From a virus, in the IMG/VR virus record IMGVR_UViG_3300044800_000058, positions 1-36,665 of that record: 36,665 nucleotides of DNA; one strand, written 5' to 3'. Positions 1 to 36,665 of this stretch are shown in pieces (position 1 is the first letter of the stretch; every line of letters begins with the position of its first letter). The notes beneath the pieces are model-generated. The model did no database searches and had not been told where the DNA came from. It saw only the letters and a program-made list of their open reading frames with translations. The translations under genes and the position numbers were made by a program.

Positions 1-408
1 GAGGCCCGGGGAAATGCGTCCGTGAAGGCCTGGGGAAATGCGTCCGTGGAGGCCCGGGGAAATGCGTCCGTGGTGGCCCGGGAAAATGCGTCCGTGGAGA
101 CCTGGGAAAATGCGTCCGTGGTGGCCGCGGGAAATGCGTCCGTGGTGGCCTGGGGAAATGCGTCCGTGAAGGCCTGGGGAAATGCGTCCGTGGTGACCCG
201 GGGAAATGCGTCCGTGGTGGCCTGGGGAAATGCGTCCGTGGTGGCCGCGGGAAATGCGTCCGTGAAGGCCCGGGGAAATGCGTCCGTGGTGGCCTGGGGA
301 AATGCGTCCGTGGTGGCCGCGGGAAATGCGTCCGTGGAGGCCCGGGGAAATGCGTCCGTGGAGGCCCGGGGAAATGCGTCCGTGGTGGCCTGGGAAAATG
401 CGTGTATC
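1..408 (+). repeat. 24-bp tandem repeat array, left part (17 units)
   Basis: Seventeen contiguous 24-base units encode 8 residues each. The 11-base core AAATGCGTCCG is constant until the final unit (385-408), which degenerates. Variation is concentrated in the first codon (GTG, GAG, AAG), the third codon (TGG, CGG, GCG) and the fourth (GGA, GAA). There are no spacers, so this is not a CRISPR array. All changes keep the reading frame. The array continues at 36240-36665. Confidence 0.97.
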
Positions 409-897
409 CGTTTGTGGGATAAAATAAAGACGCTCTCCGTCTATGGTTTTTCCGTTGTCTTCGTGCCCTTCGATCTTAAATTCAAATTCAAAAAAGAGAA
501 AACCTGCCTTATTCAGAAATTCAAGCCAAAAAAATATTTAGACCGCGAAGGGATTGAAGCCAAAAAAGGCAACGTAATTCTATTTAAGAAAACCTCCAAG
601 GATTTTAAAACCCAGGAAGGCACTAAGAATGAAACGTCATGGTTGATCGGTTCGACGGTCACGCACCTAGCGTGGAAGCCCGAAGAATCAGAATGCGGCA
701 ACGGTAAATTTCACGCCTGTTCGCGTCCGTATTTCTGTGACGAATTTAGAAACGGCAATCGAGAAGATAAATATATTGCCGTCCAGATCAAGGCGGCAGA
801 TTTATACGAATGGCCTAACGCGTCCTATCCACATAAAGTCGCTTTCCGCGAAGGCAAGGTTCTTTATGAATGTGATAAATTCGGCAAAATGCTGTAG
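1..897 (+). CDS. GNASV-repeat protein, C-terminal part (gene cut by the window end)
   Basis: The reading frame is open from base 1 to the TAG at 895-897 (298 codons) and continues the gene that starts at 36120. The first 17 units of 8 residues follow the pattern [V/E/K]-A-[R/W/A]-[G/E]-N-A-S-V, the last one degenerate. A non-repetitive C-terminal domain of about 160 residues follows, with segments such as GIEAKKGNVILFKKTSKDF, HACSRPYFCDEF and HKVAFREGKVLYECDKFGK. From memory, repeats like these followed by this kind of C-terminus occur in other phage proteins of unknown function; a parallel beta-helix is a plausible fold. If the ends are joined through their 162-base overlap, the protein is about 426 residues with about 28 repeats. 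Function unknown. There is no signal peptide or membrane segment. The start at codon 8 of this frame is not the true start. Confidence 0.85.
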   Translation, partial: EARGNASVKAWGNASVEARGNASVVARENASVETWENASVVAAGNASVVAWGNASVKAWGNASVVTRGNASVVAWGNASVVAAGNASVKARGNASVVAWGNASVVAAGNASVEARGNASVEARGNASVVAWENACIRLWDKIKTLSVYGFSVVFVPFDLKFKFKKEKTCLIQKFKPKKYLDREGIEAKKGNVILFKKTSKDFKTQEGTKNETSWLIGSTVTHLAWKPEESECGNGKFHACSRPYFCDEFRNGNREDKYIAVQIKAADLYEWPNASYPHKVAFREGKVLYECDKFGKML

Positions 898-953: not shown

Positions 954-1031
954 ATGAGTCACGAATGTCCCGACTGCGCGGTACTTTACCGCGCAGAGAA
1001 CATGTTGACAATAGAGGGGGCAAAGGGATGA
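954..1031 (+). CDS. Mini zinc-knuckle protein or remnant (25 aa)
   Basis: A 25-codon frame starts at an ATG 3 bases downstream of an in-frame GTG. It is preceded by a very strong ribosome binding site (GAAGGAGGGGG), and its TGA overlaps the ATG of the next gene (ATGA at 1028). The peptide (MSHECPDCAVLYRAENML and a short tail) is almost identical to the C-terminal half of the 84-residue zinc ribbon at 35881-36135, including its CPDC knuckle. Just upstream, in the frame one base away, lies the Cys-rich stretch CGDCQMRC. The locus could therefore be a full zinc ribbon broken by a one-base shift in the G run at about 944-951. A short real peptide that couples translation to the next gene is also possible. 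Confidence 0.5.
   Translation: MSHECPDCAVLYRAENMLTIEGAKG
966..1013 (+). repeat. 48-bp direct repeat, copy A, with perfect hairpin
   Basis: These 48 bases are identical to 36040-36087, and weaker similarity runs on to about 1027. Inside lies a perfect inverted repeat, CTGCGCGGTA at 974-983 and TACCGCGCAG at 987-996, around a 3-base CTT loop. In both copies the sequence encodes CPDCAVLYRAENMLTI. On the circular map the two copies flank the GNASV-repeat gene on its two sides. Confidence 0.95.
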
Positions 1032-1243
1032 AAACAAAAGTCATTTATCAAGAGAAATATCGCAAACCTTATCCGACAATCCGAGAATCCCTCTTACCTG
1101 ACACATTACCCTATTTCACGGAGGGAAGTATGCTGGTAAGGATTGAAGTGCTTACCGCTGGCAAAGTCCAAGACCAACAGGGATGCGTTTTAGAATTTCA
1201 AGACATCAGGGTGTTTACAAAACAGAAGGAGCCACCCAAATGA
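1028..1243 (+). CDS. Hypothetical protein (71 aa)
   Basis: I do not recognise the family. The protein begins MKTKVIYQEKYRKPYPTIRE and is soluble, with no membrane segment. The start at 1028 is chosen because it follows GAGGGGGCAAAGGG and overlaps the stop of the mini-ORF before it (ATGA). The frame is open much further upstream, but that part is out of register with any ribosome binding site and overlaps the repeat gene. Its stop overlaps the ATG of the nuclease gene at 1240. It sits in the early recombination/nuclease operon, and its tight coupling suggests co-translation with the nuclease. Confidence 0.65.
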   Translation: MKTKVIYQEKYRKPYPTIRESLLPDTLPYFTEGSMLVRIEVLTAGKVQDQQGCVLEFQDIRVFTKQKEPPK

Positions 1244-1770
1244 GTGATCTTCCGAGGGTCACAGAAATCTTAAAACCATATGTTGATTATTCGATGATCG
1301 CGTCGGACGTGTTGGACGCGGCATCCGACAGGGGGATCAGGGTTCACAATTATTGTGCAGCCTATGCAAAGGGCATTTACTCCGAGCCCATGGACGCAGA
1401 CTGCCACGGCTATCTCGAGTCATTTTTGATCTGGTTCAATAAGTACGTTGCCGAAGTCCTGGCGGTCGAAATCGAACTGGTATCACCATTCGGTTATATC
1501 GGACACGCAGATCTGATCGTGCGGCTGAAGGATAAGCGAGTACCATTGATTGACCTGAAGACCCCGTTGACTGGCTCAAAGACATGGAAGGCACAAATCG
1601 CAGCGTATTTACATGAGGCGGCCAAACCGCCCTACCATGCCGAGATTGCTGGCACATTACAGCTTAACTCAAATGGTCGGACTCCAAGGATGGCTTGGCT
1701 CGAAGACGACGGAATGGCGTTTCAGGCGTTCTTGGGCAGTCTCAACGCTTTTCGATATTTCAGAAAATAA
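1240..1770 (+). CDS. PD-(D/E)XK family nuclease (Cas4/RecB-like exonuclease)
   Basis: A 176-residue protein with the core signature of the PD-(D/E)XK superfamily. The motif GYIGHADLIV (about residues 87-96) supplies the first acidic residue, LIDLKTP (about 107-113) supplies the D-x-K pair, and QIAAYLHEA further on matches the conserved Q-x3-Y of Cas4/RecB-type nucleases. Such proteins in phages usually act as recombination exonucleases, resecting DNA ends for a single-strand annealing protein. A candidate partner lies downstream at 3281. The start overlaps the previous stop (ATGA at 1240), about 7 bases after AGAAGGAG; a longer upstream frame is not needed. It lacks the four-cysteine iron-sulfur cluster of true Cas4. 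Confidence 0.8.
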   Translation: MSDLPRVTEILKPYVDYSMIASDVLDAASDRGIRVHNYCAAYAKGIYSEPMDADCHGYLESFLIWFNKYVAEVLAVEIELVSPFGYIGHADLIVRLKDKRVPLIDLKTPLTGSKTWKAQIAAYLHEAAKPPYHAEIAGTLQLNSNGRTPRMAWLEDDGMAFQAFLGSLNAFRYFRK

Positions 1771-19079: not shown

Positions 19080-19155
19080 TGGTGGCGCGGGAAGGAGTCG
19101 CACCTTCTTTTTCAAGTTTATGAGACTTGCGAGATAACTGTTTCTCTACCGCGCG
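19080..19155 (-). tRNA. tRNA with anticodon CAU (Met or Ile2), inside the tail operon
   Basis: The minus strand folds into a 76-base cloverleaf ending in an encoded CCA. Acceptor CGCGCGG pairs with CCGCGCC in six of seven positions (the first is C-C). The D stem is GAGA/UCUC with an 8-base loop. The anticodon stem is CAAGU/ACUUG with loop CUCAUAA, giving anticodon CAU. A 5-base variable loop follows, then T stem GAAGG/CCUUC with loop UGCGACU, and finally ACCA. The D loop lacks the usual GG pair and the T loop has G where Ψ55 is expected, so it may be decaying or divergent. Whether it reads AUG or, with lysidine, AUA cannot be decided here. Confidence 0.78.
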
Positions 19156-27962: not shown

Positions 27963-28004
27963 ATAGGGGCGAAAATAGGGAAGAAATAGGGAAATAATAG
28001 GGAA
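27963..28004. repeat. Three AATAGGGAA repeats at exact 11-bp spacing
   Basis: AATAGGGAA occurs at 27974, 27985 and 27996, each 11 bases after the last, with a weaker related element (ATAGGGG) at 27963. The period is close to one DNA turn, so a protein could bind all sites on one face. It lies in a 140-base gene-free gap between the small HTH gene (28018-28194) and the membrane protein before portal; the rest of the gap (27878-27962) is AT-rich without a recognisable gene. Confidence 0.75.
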
Positions 28005-28017
28005 AAAGATAGACAGG

Positions 28018-32406: not shown

Positions 32407-33162
32407 TCACCCTATCCTGCTTGCGAGTTCTTTGACGCGCTTCATATTCTCAATCCTATCTGCCTCACTGATCTCCGGCATTTCTTCTGAGATGTATTCT
32501 TTCGGCTTCATAATGGGTATAATTGCCAGAGTCTTCGTTGGGGGTGTGAAATTTCTTTTCTCCCAGTTCCTGACCGCCGCCTTCCAATCTTTCATTTTAT
32601 TTTTGCCTACCATCCAACCGTTTGAAGTGTAATGGTCAATAAATGCCTGAGGGTCTATTGAGTTGTTGCGTTCTTTGCAATATCCGGAAACCTCTTGAAG
32701 CATAGGAGGGACAAAAGGCGCAGTCCTTTTTCCCTTATCTTTATTCTTTGAAACTGTAACTGAAACTGAAGAAGGGACGTGACGTTTCCGTGACGGCGGC
32801 GTTACTTCGGCGTTAGGGCCTTCCTTTCCCCTGAACCTTCTTTGTCTTAACCTATTATGTTCCCTGTCTTTTTCATCTTGCATCATGCGCCGTGACCAGA
32901 GCGTTACATAGCCGTTAGCCTCACGCTGTCCAGAGGCAATTTTTTCATTTAATAGATAATCAATAATGCGATTGGTGGTATCAATATCCTTATTTAAAAT
33001 AACGGCCCATCGTTCAGGTCTTAATGTTAATCTGCCCCTTTGTGGAGCCCACCACATGCGGCAACAAAACCTCTGCCATGCACCCTCGATTTCAATGTCG
33101 TGATCATCGAGATCGCGCTGCCAATCACCGGGATAAAAAAGGTAGGCGGGATTTTTCCCCAT
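32407..33162 (-). CDS. Replication initiation / replisome organiser-like protein (251 aa)
   Basis: The N-terminus NPAYLFYPGDWQRDLDDHDI followed by EGAWQRFCCRMWWAPQRGRL is the DUF1376/YdaU-like pattern (P-x-x-x-F-Y-P-G-D-W) of phage replication initiators. The middle is basic and linker-like (REHNRLRQRRFRGKEG). The C-terminus FIDHYTSNGWMVGKNKMKDW, then KAAVRNWEKRNF, is the DnaD/replisome-organiser-type segment that recruits host helicase loaders. The ATG at 33162 overlaps the methyltransferase stop (TGATG). The phage origin may lie within or near this gene, but no iterons are seen in it. Confidence 0.8.
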   Translation of the reverse strand: MGKNPAYLFYPGDWQRDLDDHDIEIEGAWQRFCCRMWWAPQRGRLTLRPERWAVILNKDIDTTNRIIDYLLNEKIASGQREANGYVTLWSRRMMQDEKDREHNRLRQRRFRGKEGPNAEVTPPSRKRHVPSSVSVTVSKNKDKGKRTAPFVPPMLQEVSGYCKERNNSIDPQAFIDHYTSNGWMVGKNKMKDWKAAVRNWEKRNFTPPTKTLAIIPIMKPKEYISEEMPEISEADRIENMKRVKELASRIG

Positions 33163-34079
33163 CAAATCACCCTATACTCGGTTTCTAACATTGCCTTCAT
33201 AATCTGATATGCTACTTGTGGAACTATCGCGTTTCCAAGTGCTTTAAGTCTGTGTACCCTATCGGATACCCCATCATCCACTCGACAAAGGCGGGTTGCA
33301 ACTTCAAGCCACGGTTCTTGCCAATGACCACTCCTACTGATGGGGAGTATTCCCCGTGTGGCTTCGTGTCCCGGCTCTGCCCGGATGCCCCCGGCGTTGG
33401 CAGAATTGCATCGCAATATTTCGGGCGTTTTGAACTGTGAAGCTTCGCTTGAACCATATCCTGCATCGTCACCATTGAATCGGTCGGTGTCGGGAGCATG
33501 GCAATCTGTCTGCCCAAATTCAACCCCCTGCTTCCCTCTCCATTTTTCTGTTTCCTTCTGCCAGTTTCCGTTAGTTCGCAATCCGATTCCACTTCCTGGG
33601 TGTTCGGTGTTGAAAGCAACAATCCATACCCTGTCCCTTCTGTGCGGGGCGTTGACGGCACAAGCTGGAATAATAAATGTCTGTGTCTCGTATTGAAGCC
33701 CCTCCAAGTCAAATAGACATTGGTCGAGTTCCATATTGATGATTCCAGCAACATTCTCCCCAATGACCCAAGTGGGCCTTGCTTCCGATATAACTCTGAG
33801 CATTTCCGGCCAGATTGCACGGTCATCTTCCTTGCCTCGTCGCTTCCCGGCGCAACTGAACGGCTGGCAGGGGAATCCTCCGGTGAGAATAAAGGGGCGT
33901 TCTCCTGCCCATTTGAATGTTTTGATGTCATCATGTATTGGTACCCCCTTAAAGTTCTTCCGCAAAACCTTCTGGCAAAATTTATCTATTTCTACAAATT
34001 GAATTGTCTCAATCCCCGCCCACCTTGCGGCGAGAGCAAAGCCGCCAATGCCACTAAATAAATCAATATGGTTATACAA
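33162..34079 (-). CDS. dcm: DNA (cytosine-5-)-methyltransferase (305 aa, TTG start)
   Basis: All main C5-methyltransferase motifs are present: motif I DLFSGIGGF (residues 6-14), motif IV GGFPCQPFS with the catalytic Cys near 71, motif VI ENV near 108-110, motif VIII PHRRDRVW near 145-152, and motif X ALGNAIVP near 285. The target recognition region (about 170-265) is variable. The enzyme would methylate phage DNA to evade host restriction; no partner restriction enzyme gene is seen. The start is a TTG overlapping the upstream TAA region and gives the family N-terminus. A second long reading frame overlaps most of the gene and is listed separately. Confidence 0.92.
   Translation of the reverse strand: MYNHIDLFSGIGGFALAARWAGIETIQFVEIDKFCQKVLRKNFKGVPIHDDIKTFKWAGERPFILTGGFPCQPFSCAGKRRGKEDDRAIWPEMLRVISEARPTWVIGENVAGIINMELDQCLFDLEGLQYETQTFIIPACAVNAPHRRDRVWIVAFNTEHPGSGIGLRTNGNWQKETEKWRGKQGVEFGQTDCHAPDTDRFNGDDAGYGSSEASQFKTPEILRCNSANAGGIRAEPGHEATRGILPISRSGHWQEPWLEVATRLCRVDDGVSDRVHRLKALGNAIVPQVAYQIMKAMLETEYRVI
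33224..33934 (-). CDS. Long overlapping ORF in another frame of the methyltransferase gene (236 aa)
   Basis: This frame lies in the +1 register relative to the methyltransferase. It opens with an ATG and encodes a product with motifs I remember from annotated phage proteins: RKMTVQSGRKCSELYRKQGP, LGSLGRMLLESSIWNSTN, and a C-terminal LQPAFVEWMMGYPIGYTDLK like the L-x-P-x-F-V-E-W-x-M-G-x-P-x-G-W-T-D-L ending of a phage protein family. It may be truly dual-coding, or conserved only because the methyltransferase frame is conserved. No strong ribosome binding site was found. Treat it as a candidate. Confidence 0.4.
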   Translation of the reverse strand: MMTSKHSNGQENAPLFSPEDSPASRSVAPGSDEARKMTVQSGRKCSELYRKQGPLGSLGRMLLESSIWNSTNVYLTWRGFNTRHRHLLFQLVPSTPRTEGTGYGLLLSTPNTQEVESDCELTETGRRKQKNGEGSRGLNLGRQIAMLPTPTDSMVTMQDMVQAKLHSSKRPKYCDAILPTPGASGQSRDTKPHGEYSPSVGVVIGKNRGLKLQPAFVEWMMGYPIGYTDLKHLETR

Positions 34080-35725: not shown

Positions 35726-35884
35726 ATGCCGCTCAGAAGATACATGACATCATTAATACTACAGCCCGTTTCTCTAAAGAAGAATAAGAAGCGGCGACGC
35801 AAAGCCATATATTGGCTGTTCATGAGTATCATCGCTGCCGTAACCTATCTGCTGCTCTACTTCGCGGGAATGGTGAGATCATGA
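35726..35884 (+). CDS. Small early membrane protein (52 aa)
   Basis: The ribosome binding site GAGGAGGGAAAATAAT is ideal. The product has a basic N-terminal half (VSLKKNKKRRRKAI) and a C-terminal membrane segment (YWLFMSIIAAVTYLLLYFAG). It is coupled to the next gene by ATGA. No family recognised. Together with the two preceding genes it makes a run of three small membrane proteins in the early operon. Confidence 0.65.
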   Translation: MPLRRYMTSLILQPVSLKKNKKRRRKAIYWLFMSIIAAVTYLLLYFAGMVRS

Positions 35885-36135
35885 AGTGGCCCAAATCCGC
35901 ACATACGACCGTCCATGGCGTCCTGCAGTCGATAAAGGAGCGAACAGGGCAGTCCTATATCATTGCTGTCTGTATACGCTGTGATGAAGTTCGGGGCATA
36001 AAGGATGGCAAGGGCGTGACAGGGATTTCGTACGGTTTTTGTCCCGACTGCGCGGTACTTTACCGCGCAGAGAACATGTTGACAATAACCGAACCGGAAG
36101 GGGGGAAGGGAGAAAATAAATGCAAGAAGTTATAA
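35881..36135 (+). CDS. Zinc-ribbon early protein (84 aa)
   Basis: The product contains SYIIAVCIRCDEVRGIKDGK and FCPDCAVLYRAENM, a C-x2-C ... C-x2-C zinc ribbon (Cys residues near 26, 29, 54 and 57). The N-terminal HTTVHGVLQSIKERTGQ is a helix. Its C-terminal half is copied as the mini-ORF at 954-1031. The 48-bp identical segment with a perfect hairpin lies here at 36040-36087. Its last 16 bases overlap the start of the GNASV gene. The ATG overlaps the previous stop. Function unknown; such proteins often bind RNA, DNA or host polymerase. Confidence 0.72.
   Translation: MKWPKSAHTTVHGVLQSIKERTGQSYIIAVCIRCDEVRGIKDGKGVTGISYGFCPDCAVLYRAENMLTITEPEGGKGENKCKKL
36040..36087 (+). repeat. 48-bp direct repeat, copy B, with perfect hairpin
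   Basis: Identical to 966-1013. The hairpin arms are at 36048-36057 and 36061-36070, 10 bp with a 3-base loop. Here it encodes part of the intact zinc-ribbon protein and lies upstream of the GNASV gene, while copy A lies downstream of that gene on the circular map. Confidence 0.95.
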
Positions 36136-36665
36136 TTAATACCCAAGCGGAAATGGACAGGGTTAAGGTCGATTTTGACGGCATCATAAAAGTGCTCGGT
36201 ATCGGTATCCGCGTGAAAATTAAATATCGCCATCGCGTGGTGGCCCGGGGAAATGCGTCCGTGAAGGCCTGGGGAAATGCGTCCGTGGTGGCCTGGGGAA
36301 ATGCGTCCGTGGAGGCCCGGGGAAATGCGTCCGTGGTGGCCTGGGGAAATGCGTCCGTGGAGGCCCGGGTAAATGCGTCCGTGGTGGCCGCGGGAAATGC
36401 GTTCGTGGTGGTCTGGGAAAATGCGTCCGTGGTGGCCCGGGGAAATGCGTCCGTGGAGGCCCGGGGAAATGCGTCCGTGGTGGCCCGGGAAAATGCGTCC
36501 GTGGAGGCCCGGGGAAATGCGTCCGTGAAGGCCTGGGGAAATGCGTCCGTGGAGGCCCGGGGAAATGCGTCCGTGGTGGCCCGGGAAAATGCGTCCGTGG
36601 AGACCTGGGAAAATGCGTCCGTGGTGGCCTGGGGAAATGCGTCCGTGGTGGCCTGGGGAAATGCG
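36120..36665 (+). CDS. GNASV-repeat protein, N-terminal part
   Basis: The ATG follows GGGGGGAAGGGAGAAAATAA. The first ~40 residues (MQEVIINTQAEMDRVKVDFD, GIIKVLGIGIRVKIKYRHR) form a short alpha/beta lead-in known to me from phage repeat proteins that start M-x-E-x-I-I-N-T-Q. Then 17 full 8-residue units and a partial one run to the last base, in frame (182 codons). The frame continues at base 1, where the last 54 codons of this segment match the first 54 almost exactly. One unit has an A-F substitution and one has V in place of G. No membrane segment or signal peptide. The repeat could form a beta-solenoid; this is inference. Confidence 0.85.
   Translation, partial: MQEVIINTQAEMDRVKVDFDGIIKVLGIGIRVKIKYRHRVVARGNASVKAWGNASVVAWGNASVEARGNASVVAWGNASVEARVNASVVAAGNAFVVVWENASVVARGNASVEARGNASVVARENASVEARGNASVKAWGNASVEARGNASVVARENASVETWENASVVAWGNASVVAWGNA
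36240..36665 (+). repeat. 24-bp tandem repeat array, right part (17.75 units)
   Basis: Units are the same 24-base type as at 1-408. Only two of the core bases vary in rare units (GTTCGTG at 36400-36407 region; GGGTAAAT at 36368-36374). Merged with the left part after removing the overlap, the array has about 28 units, though assembly may have collapsed or expanded it. Confidence 0.97.
36504..36665 (+). other. Terminal overlap with bases 1-162
   Basis: Aligned without gaps, 36504-36665 and 1-162 differ only at the third codon of one repeat unit (TGG here, GCG at 127-129; two mismatches). This is the expected pattern for the joined ends of a circular or circularly permuted molecule, or for two loci of the same array family. 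Confidence 0.85.

Follow-up and report, generated by a model that had tools for sequence, protein, structure and literature searches.

We found that a phage gene split between the two ends of a virus record carries a 24-bp repeat array that is homogenised and reshuffled by recombination. Three single nucleotides of the unit nevertheless stay polymorphic in almost all phages. The encoded repeat is predicted to form a β-solenoid, and it precedes a domain that shares its ancestry with the C-terminal domain of T4 RIIB.

The window, that is, the whole stretch of DNA analysed here, corresponds to a 36,665-bp IMG/VR virus record with a standard siphophage gene set. Its minus strand encodes the terminase, portal, protease, major head and tail proteins, tape measure and tail fibre, and its plus strand holds the early region, which continues across the record ends. 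The features of the array gene and its surroundings are as follows.

36120..36665, plus strand: 5' half of the array gene, an ORF of 182 aa with an ATG start, open at the right end of the window
36120..36248, plus strand: N-terminal lead-in or predicted solenoid cap (MQEVIINTQAEMDRVKVDFDGIIKVLGIGIRVKIKYRHRVVAR), 43 aa; its TQxExD motif region is kept in relatives
36249..36665, plus strand: 24-bp (8-codon) repeat array, 17 full units and a partial unit
1..897, plus strand: 3' half of the array gene, a 5'-open ORF of 298 aa with its stop at 895-897
1..402, plus strand: 24-bp repeat array, 16 full units and one degenerate last unit
1..162, plus strand: terminal near-repeat, identical to 36504-36665 at 160 of 162 bases
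36504..36665, plus strand: terminal near-repeat, partner of 1-162
403..576, plus strand: predicted solenoid C-terminal cap strands running into the DUF7666 domain (structure models)
577..870, plus strand: DUF7666-like (PF24703) domain, homologue of the T4 RIIB C-terminal domain, with an ART-like fold in the model
966..1013, plus strand: downstream copy of an exact 48-bp direct repeat that flanks the array gene
1183..1770, plus strand: exonuclease (phrog_298, PHROG match) of the early/recombination module, neighbour of the array gene
33162-34079, minus strand: C-5 cytosine DNA methylase (PF00145, E 8e-42)
36040..36087, plus strand: 48-bp exact direct repeat, upstream copy, in the 3' part of a zinc-ribbon-like ORF (CxxC...CPDC)

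One gene across the ends of the record

The repeat arrays lie where a previous reading of the sequence, made without database searches (the sequence-only reading), had placed them: TRF reports 17.9 copies of a 24-bp unit at 36236-36665 (89% matches) and 16.7 copies at 3-403, and the units translate as GNASVVAW-type octapeptides. The two ends of the window share no exact repeat of at least 15 bp. The last 162 bp differ from the first 162 bp at two adjacent positions, and every other register is at least 8.5% different. At the same length, the best matches among internal in-register comparisons carry 9-12 mismatches, and none of 5000 shuffles of unit order matched the observed overlap. In addition, a phage from another sample (L021) has a single ORF of 371 aa that matches both halves: it includes the lead-in (MKEIIINTQAEMDAVKADFDGIIK against MQEVIINTQAEMDRVKVDFDGIIK) as well as the C-terminus, at about 75-77%. 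About 25 more relatives also have cap, array and C-terminal domain together in one ORF. Since the overlap beats the shuffles and L021 has one ORF, it is well supported that the two end ORFs are one gene, as the earlier reader had proposed, split where the assembly broke inside the 24-bp repeat. Many contigs of relatives likewise stop within the array, which would be expected if the repeat is hard to assemble. Although the missing exact terminal repeat and the two adjacent mismatches would fit two separate genes, or an array that is an assembly artefact, either is hardly credible given the undivided ORFs of the relatives, their own breaks within the array and the outcome of the shuffles.

The single gene of the sequence-only reading therefore stands, and its figures of about 28 copies, about 426 aa and a circular genome are conditional: the joined gene would have about 28 units and encode about 426 aa if the ends overlap, and would have at least 33 units if they do not. 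We favour about 28 units; the higher count is conceivable because long higher-order duplications exist in the relative L086. In that phage (MW202485.1, 2581-3747) the duplication comprises about 11 units, and a duplicated block is found in Squirty gp51 too. Minus-strand open frames through the array were not counted as genes, because the repeat length is divisible by three. Both halves of the gene match PHROG 15773 (E 6e-28 for the 5' half and 1e-22 for the 3' half), partly through the repeat; the value for the window C-terminus alone is 0.0068. The 43-aa lead-in, described before as distinct, is conserved in relatives, and the proposed early-region location is consistent with the adjoining exonuclease gene.

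The 48-bp direct repeats flank the array gene as if it had been recombined in, or could be deleted between the copies. Upstream, a small ORF with two CxxC pairs (35881-36135) shares 16 bp with the start of the array gene, which suggests translational coupling. Elsewhere, the window carries a sole tRNA-Met (CAT) at 19080-19155, on the minus strand amid the structural genes, and an 11-bp tandem repeat (AAAATAGGGAA, 3.6 copies, 27972-28012) between the portal and terminase genes. An 8.2-kb stretch of window DNA had no near match in phages, and a search through the exonuclease yielded no closer relative. A strict link with RecT/YqaJ across relatives was considered and dropped, as these genes are nearby in some relatives' contigs only.

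Three switch positions in a homogenised array

In the window units, variation is nearly limited to codon 1 (Gly/Glu, once Val), codon 6 (Val/Glu/Lys) and codon 8 (Trp/Arg/Ala), the three codons singled out earlier. We extracted 44 arrays comprising 540 units. Polymorphisms were counted in the 40 arrays that have six or more units and come mostly from unrelated phages. Heterozygosity within arrays is about 0.41-0.42 at unit nucleotides 2, 17 and 22 and at most 0.11 at the other positions, and heterozygosity between arrays is mostly 0.45-0.68 at silent third positions. Each of the three nucleotides is polymorphic in 36 of the 40 arrays, against 7 for the next-ranked position. The alternatives are Gly versus Glu or Asp, Val versus Glu, and Trp versus Arg, and single-nucleotide codon variants in these arrays comprise 506 non-synonymous and 29 synonymous cases. 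Silent positions vary among phages and scarcely inside one array. The Arg of the Trp/Arg switch is encoded only by CGG in 26 arrays, only by AGG in 10 and by both in none. This homogeneity at silent sites within a phage agrees with the recent expansion and homogenisation suggested from the window alone.

All eight switch combinations are common, with 27-66 occurrences each among 409 fully scored units. Alleles that are two nucleotides apart remain linked (GTC/GAG in L051 and GGT/GAG in L086), which indicates that units are copied and not remade through point mutation. The order of units changes fast: in two pairs of phages (L032/L034 and L059/L062) the C-terminal DNA is 100% identical and the array order is different. 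By motif count, Redi and BabeRuth have four units each, those of BabeRuth being different from those of Redi, and Raymond7 has three; among Bordetella phages, BPP-1 has 14 units, BMP-1 and BIP-1 have 20 each and vB_BbrP_003 has 7. Between neighbouring units, Arg at position 8 is modestly associated with an acidic first residue in the unit that follows (z 3.6), and no clear period was seen in the switch correlations. We rejected DGR-driven variation, as the window record has no reverse transcriptase (RVT_1) and the linked alleles fit unit copying. In our reading, recombination quickly homogenises the array while selection keeps three residues diverse.

The repeat as a predicted β-solenoid

The AlphaFold2 model of the complete L021 protein is a regular β-solenoid (mean pLDDT 89.1) with a four-residue strand per unit, running from the cap to the C-terminal region. 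In VIA, this model has β-helix matches up to Z 18.9 (Ag43, 236 residues, rmsd 3.0). The model is that of a homologue, built without partner molecules, and covers the joined window gene by extension. On this basis we predict that the repeat folds into a regular β-solenoid to which each unit contributes one β-strand. A β-solenoid, as opposed to disorder, is what the sequence-only reading had put forward. The invariant Val5 and Ala7 alternate with switch positions 6 and 8 in or beside the strand, an arrangement from which we infer that Val5 and Ala7 face inward and positions 6 and 8 outward. A sequence search of solved structures with the full-length profile gave weak repeat matches only. In Pfam, the repeat has weak matches to the β-helices of trimeric spikes (Gp5_trimer_C, DUF2345), which makes an intertwined oligomer conceivable.

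The C-terminal domain

The window C-terminal region was modelled at pLDDT 91.9. A C-terminal domain had been noticed from the letters, correctly, while its DUF7666-like and RIIB-like nature had been missed; homologue searches led to DUF7666, to T4 RIIB and to 60 IMG/VR loci. The window protein matches Pfam DUF7666 (PF24703) at E 8e-5 to 5e-7, with scores of 23.5-25.4 bits that fall slightly short of the cut-off (27), and 25 of 57 relatives match it at E<=0.01. The Che8 and BPP-1 homologues score above the cut-off, and an hhalign comparison with DUF7666 (A2-A5) gave a probability of 98%. Among viral models, Foldseek retrieved many T4-like and N4-like RIIB proteins (best E 6e-7 to 1e-5). In agreement with these matches, hhalign aligned the C-termini of 11 RIIB proteins with those of the 57 relatives (probability 95%, E 2.6e-8) and with the DUF7666 domains of Che8 and BPP-1 (80%, 1.3e-5). 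For the 57 relatives the real score was 55.9, whereas 60 column shuffles reached no more than 20.3 and the reversed control reached 18.4. In the joint alignment of RIIB proteins and relatives, a K, C, G, H and K are invariant. In Pfam, T4 RIIB itself gave no match to DUF7666 and two other RIIB proteins match weakly. By these computational comparisons, DUF7666 and the T4 RIIB C-terminal domain are homologous, a relationship that appears to be new. We do not class the window protein as a RIIB, because the cap and solenoid replace the helix-turn-helix N-terminus of T4 RIIB.

When solved structures were searched with Foldseek, the top match was the rifampin ADP-ribosyltransferase Arr (probability 0.97, E 0.018), and the VIA rows for the domain model are dominated by Tpt1, TreTu/TreX, Arr and PARPs (Z 4-6.8). 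The domain model thus resembles the ADP-ribosyltransferase (ART) superfold, which we take as resemblance and not as membership, because a Z below 8 can reflect a common arrangement. ARTs have Arg or His where this domain has Lys, and the usual catalytic residues are not evident. A CGKGLHFC segment in Che8, which we presume to be like a PARP motif, serves as a lead only. Sequence searches of solved structures with C-terminal, RIIB and Che8-type profiles returned no credible relative and no ART match. In the literature searched, which lay largely outside subscription journals, we found no paper linking RIIB to an ADP-ribosyltransferase fold and none on DUF7666. The domain model also matches pentapeptide-repeat (Rheinheimera phage) and ankyrin-repeat (giant virus) proteins at E 4e-4 to 4e-3, so this domain may be joined to repeat modules more generally.

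Relatives and known systems

The same C-terminal domain occurs in the 60 IMG/VR loci and in 3 genome contigs, nearly always after a repeat array, and in complete relatives a lead-in of the same type precedes the array. Searches by tblastn of the window C-terminus against INPHARED and of the 5'-open ORF against plasmids gave no matches. Several relatives have other repeats. L033 (1-981), L026, L031 and L083 have a ten-residue unit (GSSSPHIEAW) whose alternatives, G/E, V/E and W/R, are of the kind described above, and L077 has other octapeptides before the same domain. In L070 (1-780) and L075 (1-557) the domain follows an LPEGVKF-type repeat (LPEGVKFENGGYVYLSS type). The repeat module thus seems to be exchangeable, because these two carry a quite different repeat before the same domain.

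Among named phages, Che8 gp59, Squirty gp51, Redi gp44 and others constitute PHROG 15773, which has no assigned function, and combine cap, octapeptide repeat and C-terminal domain in one protein. Che8 gp59 and its cluster F/N homologues share with the window protein a cap with a TQxELD-type motif, an octapeptide (GSAHVVAW) and a C-terminal DUF7666. They differ in showing about 25-29% identity to a window-type relative and a wider choice of residues at position 8, and their copy number ranges from 3 to about 21. Bbp36 of BPP-1 (variable region 2, VR2) also combines DUF7666 with a 24-bp octapeptide array that has variable last residues, close to an exonuclease gene, and BPP-1-type arrays differ among near-identical phages. 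Unlike in the window protein, the domain order is reversed (DUF7666 is N-terminal), the unit is GTATAGYR, only codons 7-8 vary, and an extra C-terminal region lies beyond the array. According to Pham et al. (2007, PMC2884959), who cite Liu et al. (2004), VR2 has 9 to 20 copies and bbp36 is dispensable. Hence, the repeat/DUF7666 architecture and the array variation in BPP-1 VR2 and Che8 gp59 were known before, and the claim that such proteins are not characterised holds for their function and not for this pairing.

T4 RIIB, a classic rapid-lysis and anti-exclusion protein, resembles the window protein in its homologous C-terminal domain and in being an accessory early phage protein, and differs in its helix-turn-helix N-terminus, the lack of a solenoid and its partnership with RIIA. 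Tweety gp54 and Che8 gp57, tetrapeptide-repeat counter-defence proteins, likewise vary in repeat length between conserved ends and have a neighbouring place in the Che8 map. Tweety gp54, however, has a WSAA/GSAA repeat, belongs to phrog_3416 and lacks DUF7666. Transferring its counter-defence label by neighbourhood was rejected, as the proteins are not homologous. The ART superfold (Arr, Tpt1, PARPs) supplies the best solved-structure matches to the domain model, at Z 6.8 or less and with no sequence match.

Accessory status and proposed function

Over 12.5 kb around the gene in L021, close similarity to the window is limited to the array gene. Of the 370 mycobacteriophage records that have Che8-like DNA at that place, a minority contain a homologue. 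The copies in EleanorGeorge (L093 479-976) and Soul22 (L094 499-978) are frameshifted or truncated, so the gene is dispensable in these two phages. In BPP-1, bbp36 is near the exonuclease gene bbp38, and the Redi homologue lies between a Cro-like repressor and RecE. From its distribution, the window gene looks accessory.

RIIB acts with RIIA to counter λ RexAB, a role kept across divergent phages, and is dispensable without Rex (PMC11879866, PMC8594841). We tentatively propose, giving it somewhat less than an even chance, that the product of the window gene, made early and accessory, is a counter-defence protein of RIIB-like type in which the solenoid serves as a combinatorial binding surface. 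The outside of the solenoid would carry a two-state code (Gly/acidic, Val/Glu, Trp/Arg), the solenoid would bind a variable protein partner, and unit shuffling would retune this binding surface. The RIIB/ART-like domain might act on the target or cap it. The protein would then work like RIIB, in counter-defence or anti-exclusion, and be needed on some hosts only. Several facts weigh against parts of this proposal. RIIB works with RIIA, and T4 RIIB has no solenoid; a RIIA-type ATPase (PF13589) was not found in the window record or in most relatives, in a search that found the positive control T4 rIIA. If the protein is RIIB-like in action, it would have to act without RIIA, because no such ATPase was found in the window. 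Selection could also favour charge balance or solubility of the solenoid instead of a binding code, and the Z below 7 and Foldseek E of about 0.02 amount to fold resemblance for the ART part.

An unlikely but serious alternative is that the solenoid is a molecular ruler, a rigid spacer whose length alone sets the distance from the cap to the RIIB-like domain and is tuned by changes in copy number. Arrays of 3 to about 28 units between conserved ends fit this idea, which has been proposed for Tweety gp54, whose escape mutants vary in repeat number (PMC9262239). However, Tweety gp54 is not homologous, and length alone leaves three polymorphic positions in 36 of 40 homogenised arrays unexplained.

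It is less probable still that DUF7666 is an active ADP-ribosyltransferase that modifies a host protein, as T4 Alt, ModA and ModB do, with the solenoid selecting the substrate. The superfold resemblance would agree with such an enzyme, as would the strong conservation of K62, E97, G99, H104, R116, D122 and K145 in the 57 relatives. On the other hand, the fold scores are weak, a canonical catalytic triad is not seen, no solved ART matches in sequence and RIIB is not known as an enzyme.

Unit copies clearly recombine, and the three polymorphisms could in principle be ancient alleles under drift, in arrays otherwise homogenised by unequal recombination, with no selected code. We consider this quite improbable, since the same three positions recur, at near-maximal diversity, despite differing unit sequences and silent codons, and the variants are so predominantly non-synonymous. 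It is highly improbable that the protein belongs to the virion, as an adhesin or as a receptor-binding protein whose variable β-helix is tailspike-like: tailspikes and autotransporters are among the β-helix matches and weak PHROG tail matches arise from the repeat, but the gene lies away from the tail module on the opposite strand, beside an exonuclease, as its BPP-1 and Redi homologues lie beside recombination genes, and its C-terminal domain is RIIB-like.

Going beyond the window protein, there may exist a widespread phage class that joins a RIIB-type, ART-fold domain to a shuffled solenoid with a two-state code, with RIIB as its helix-turn-helix-bearing branch; we regard this wider view as doubtful, though worth stating. 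Some seventy years of work on RIIB have not made clear what its interaction is specific for (PMC11879866). If the RIIB C-terminus is DUF7666 with an ART-like fold, this would provide a structural starting point and numerous domain swaps made by nature that can be compared. If the wider view holds, the array would serve for modular recognition, as a surface that evolves by the shuffling of its units, without a dedicated mutator. The three-switch array is in any case a clear natural example of a surface that is seemingly diversified via unit shuffling, with selection seeming to keep three positions variable.
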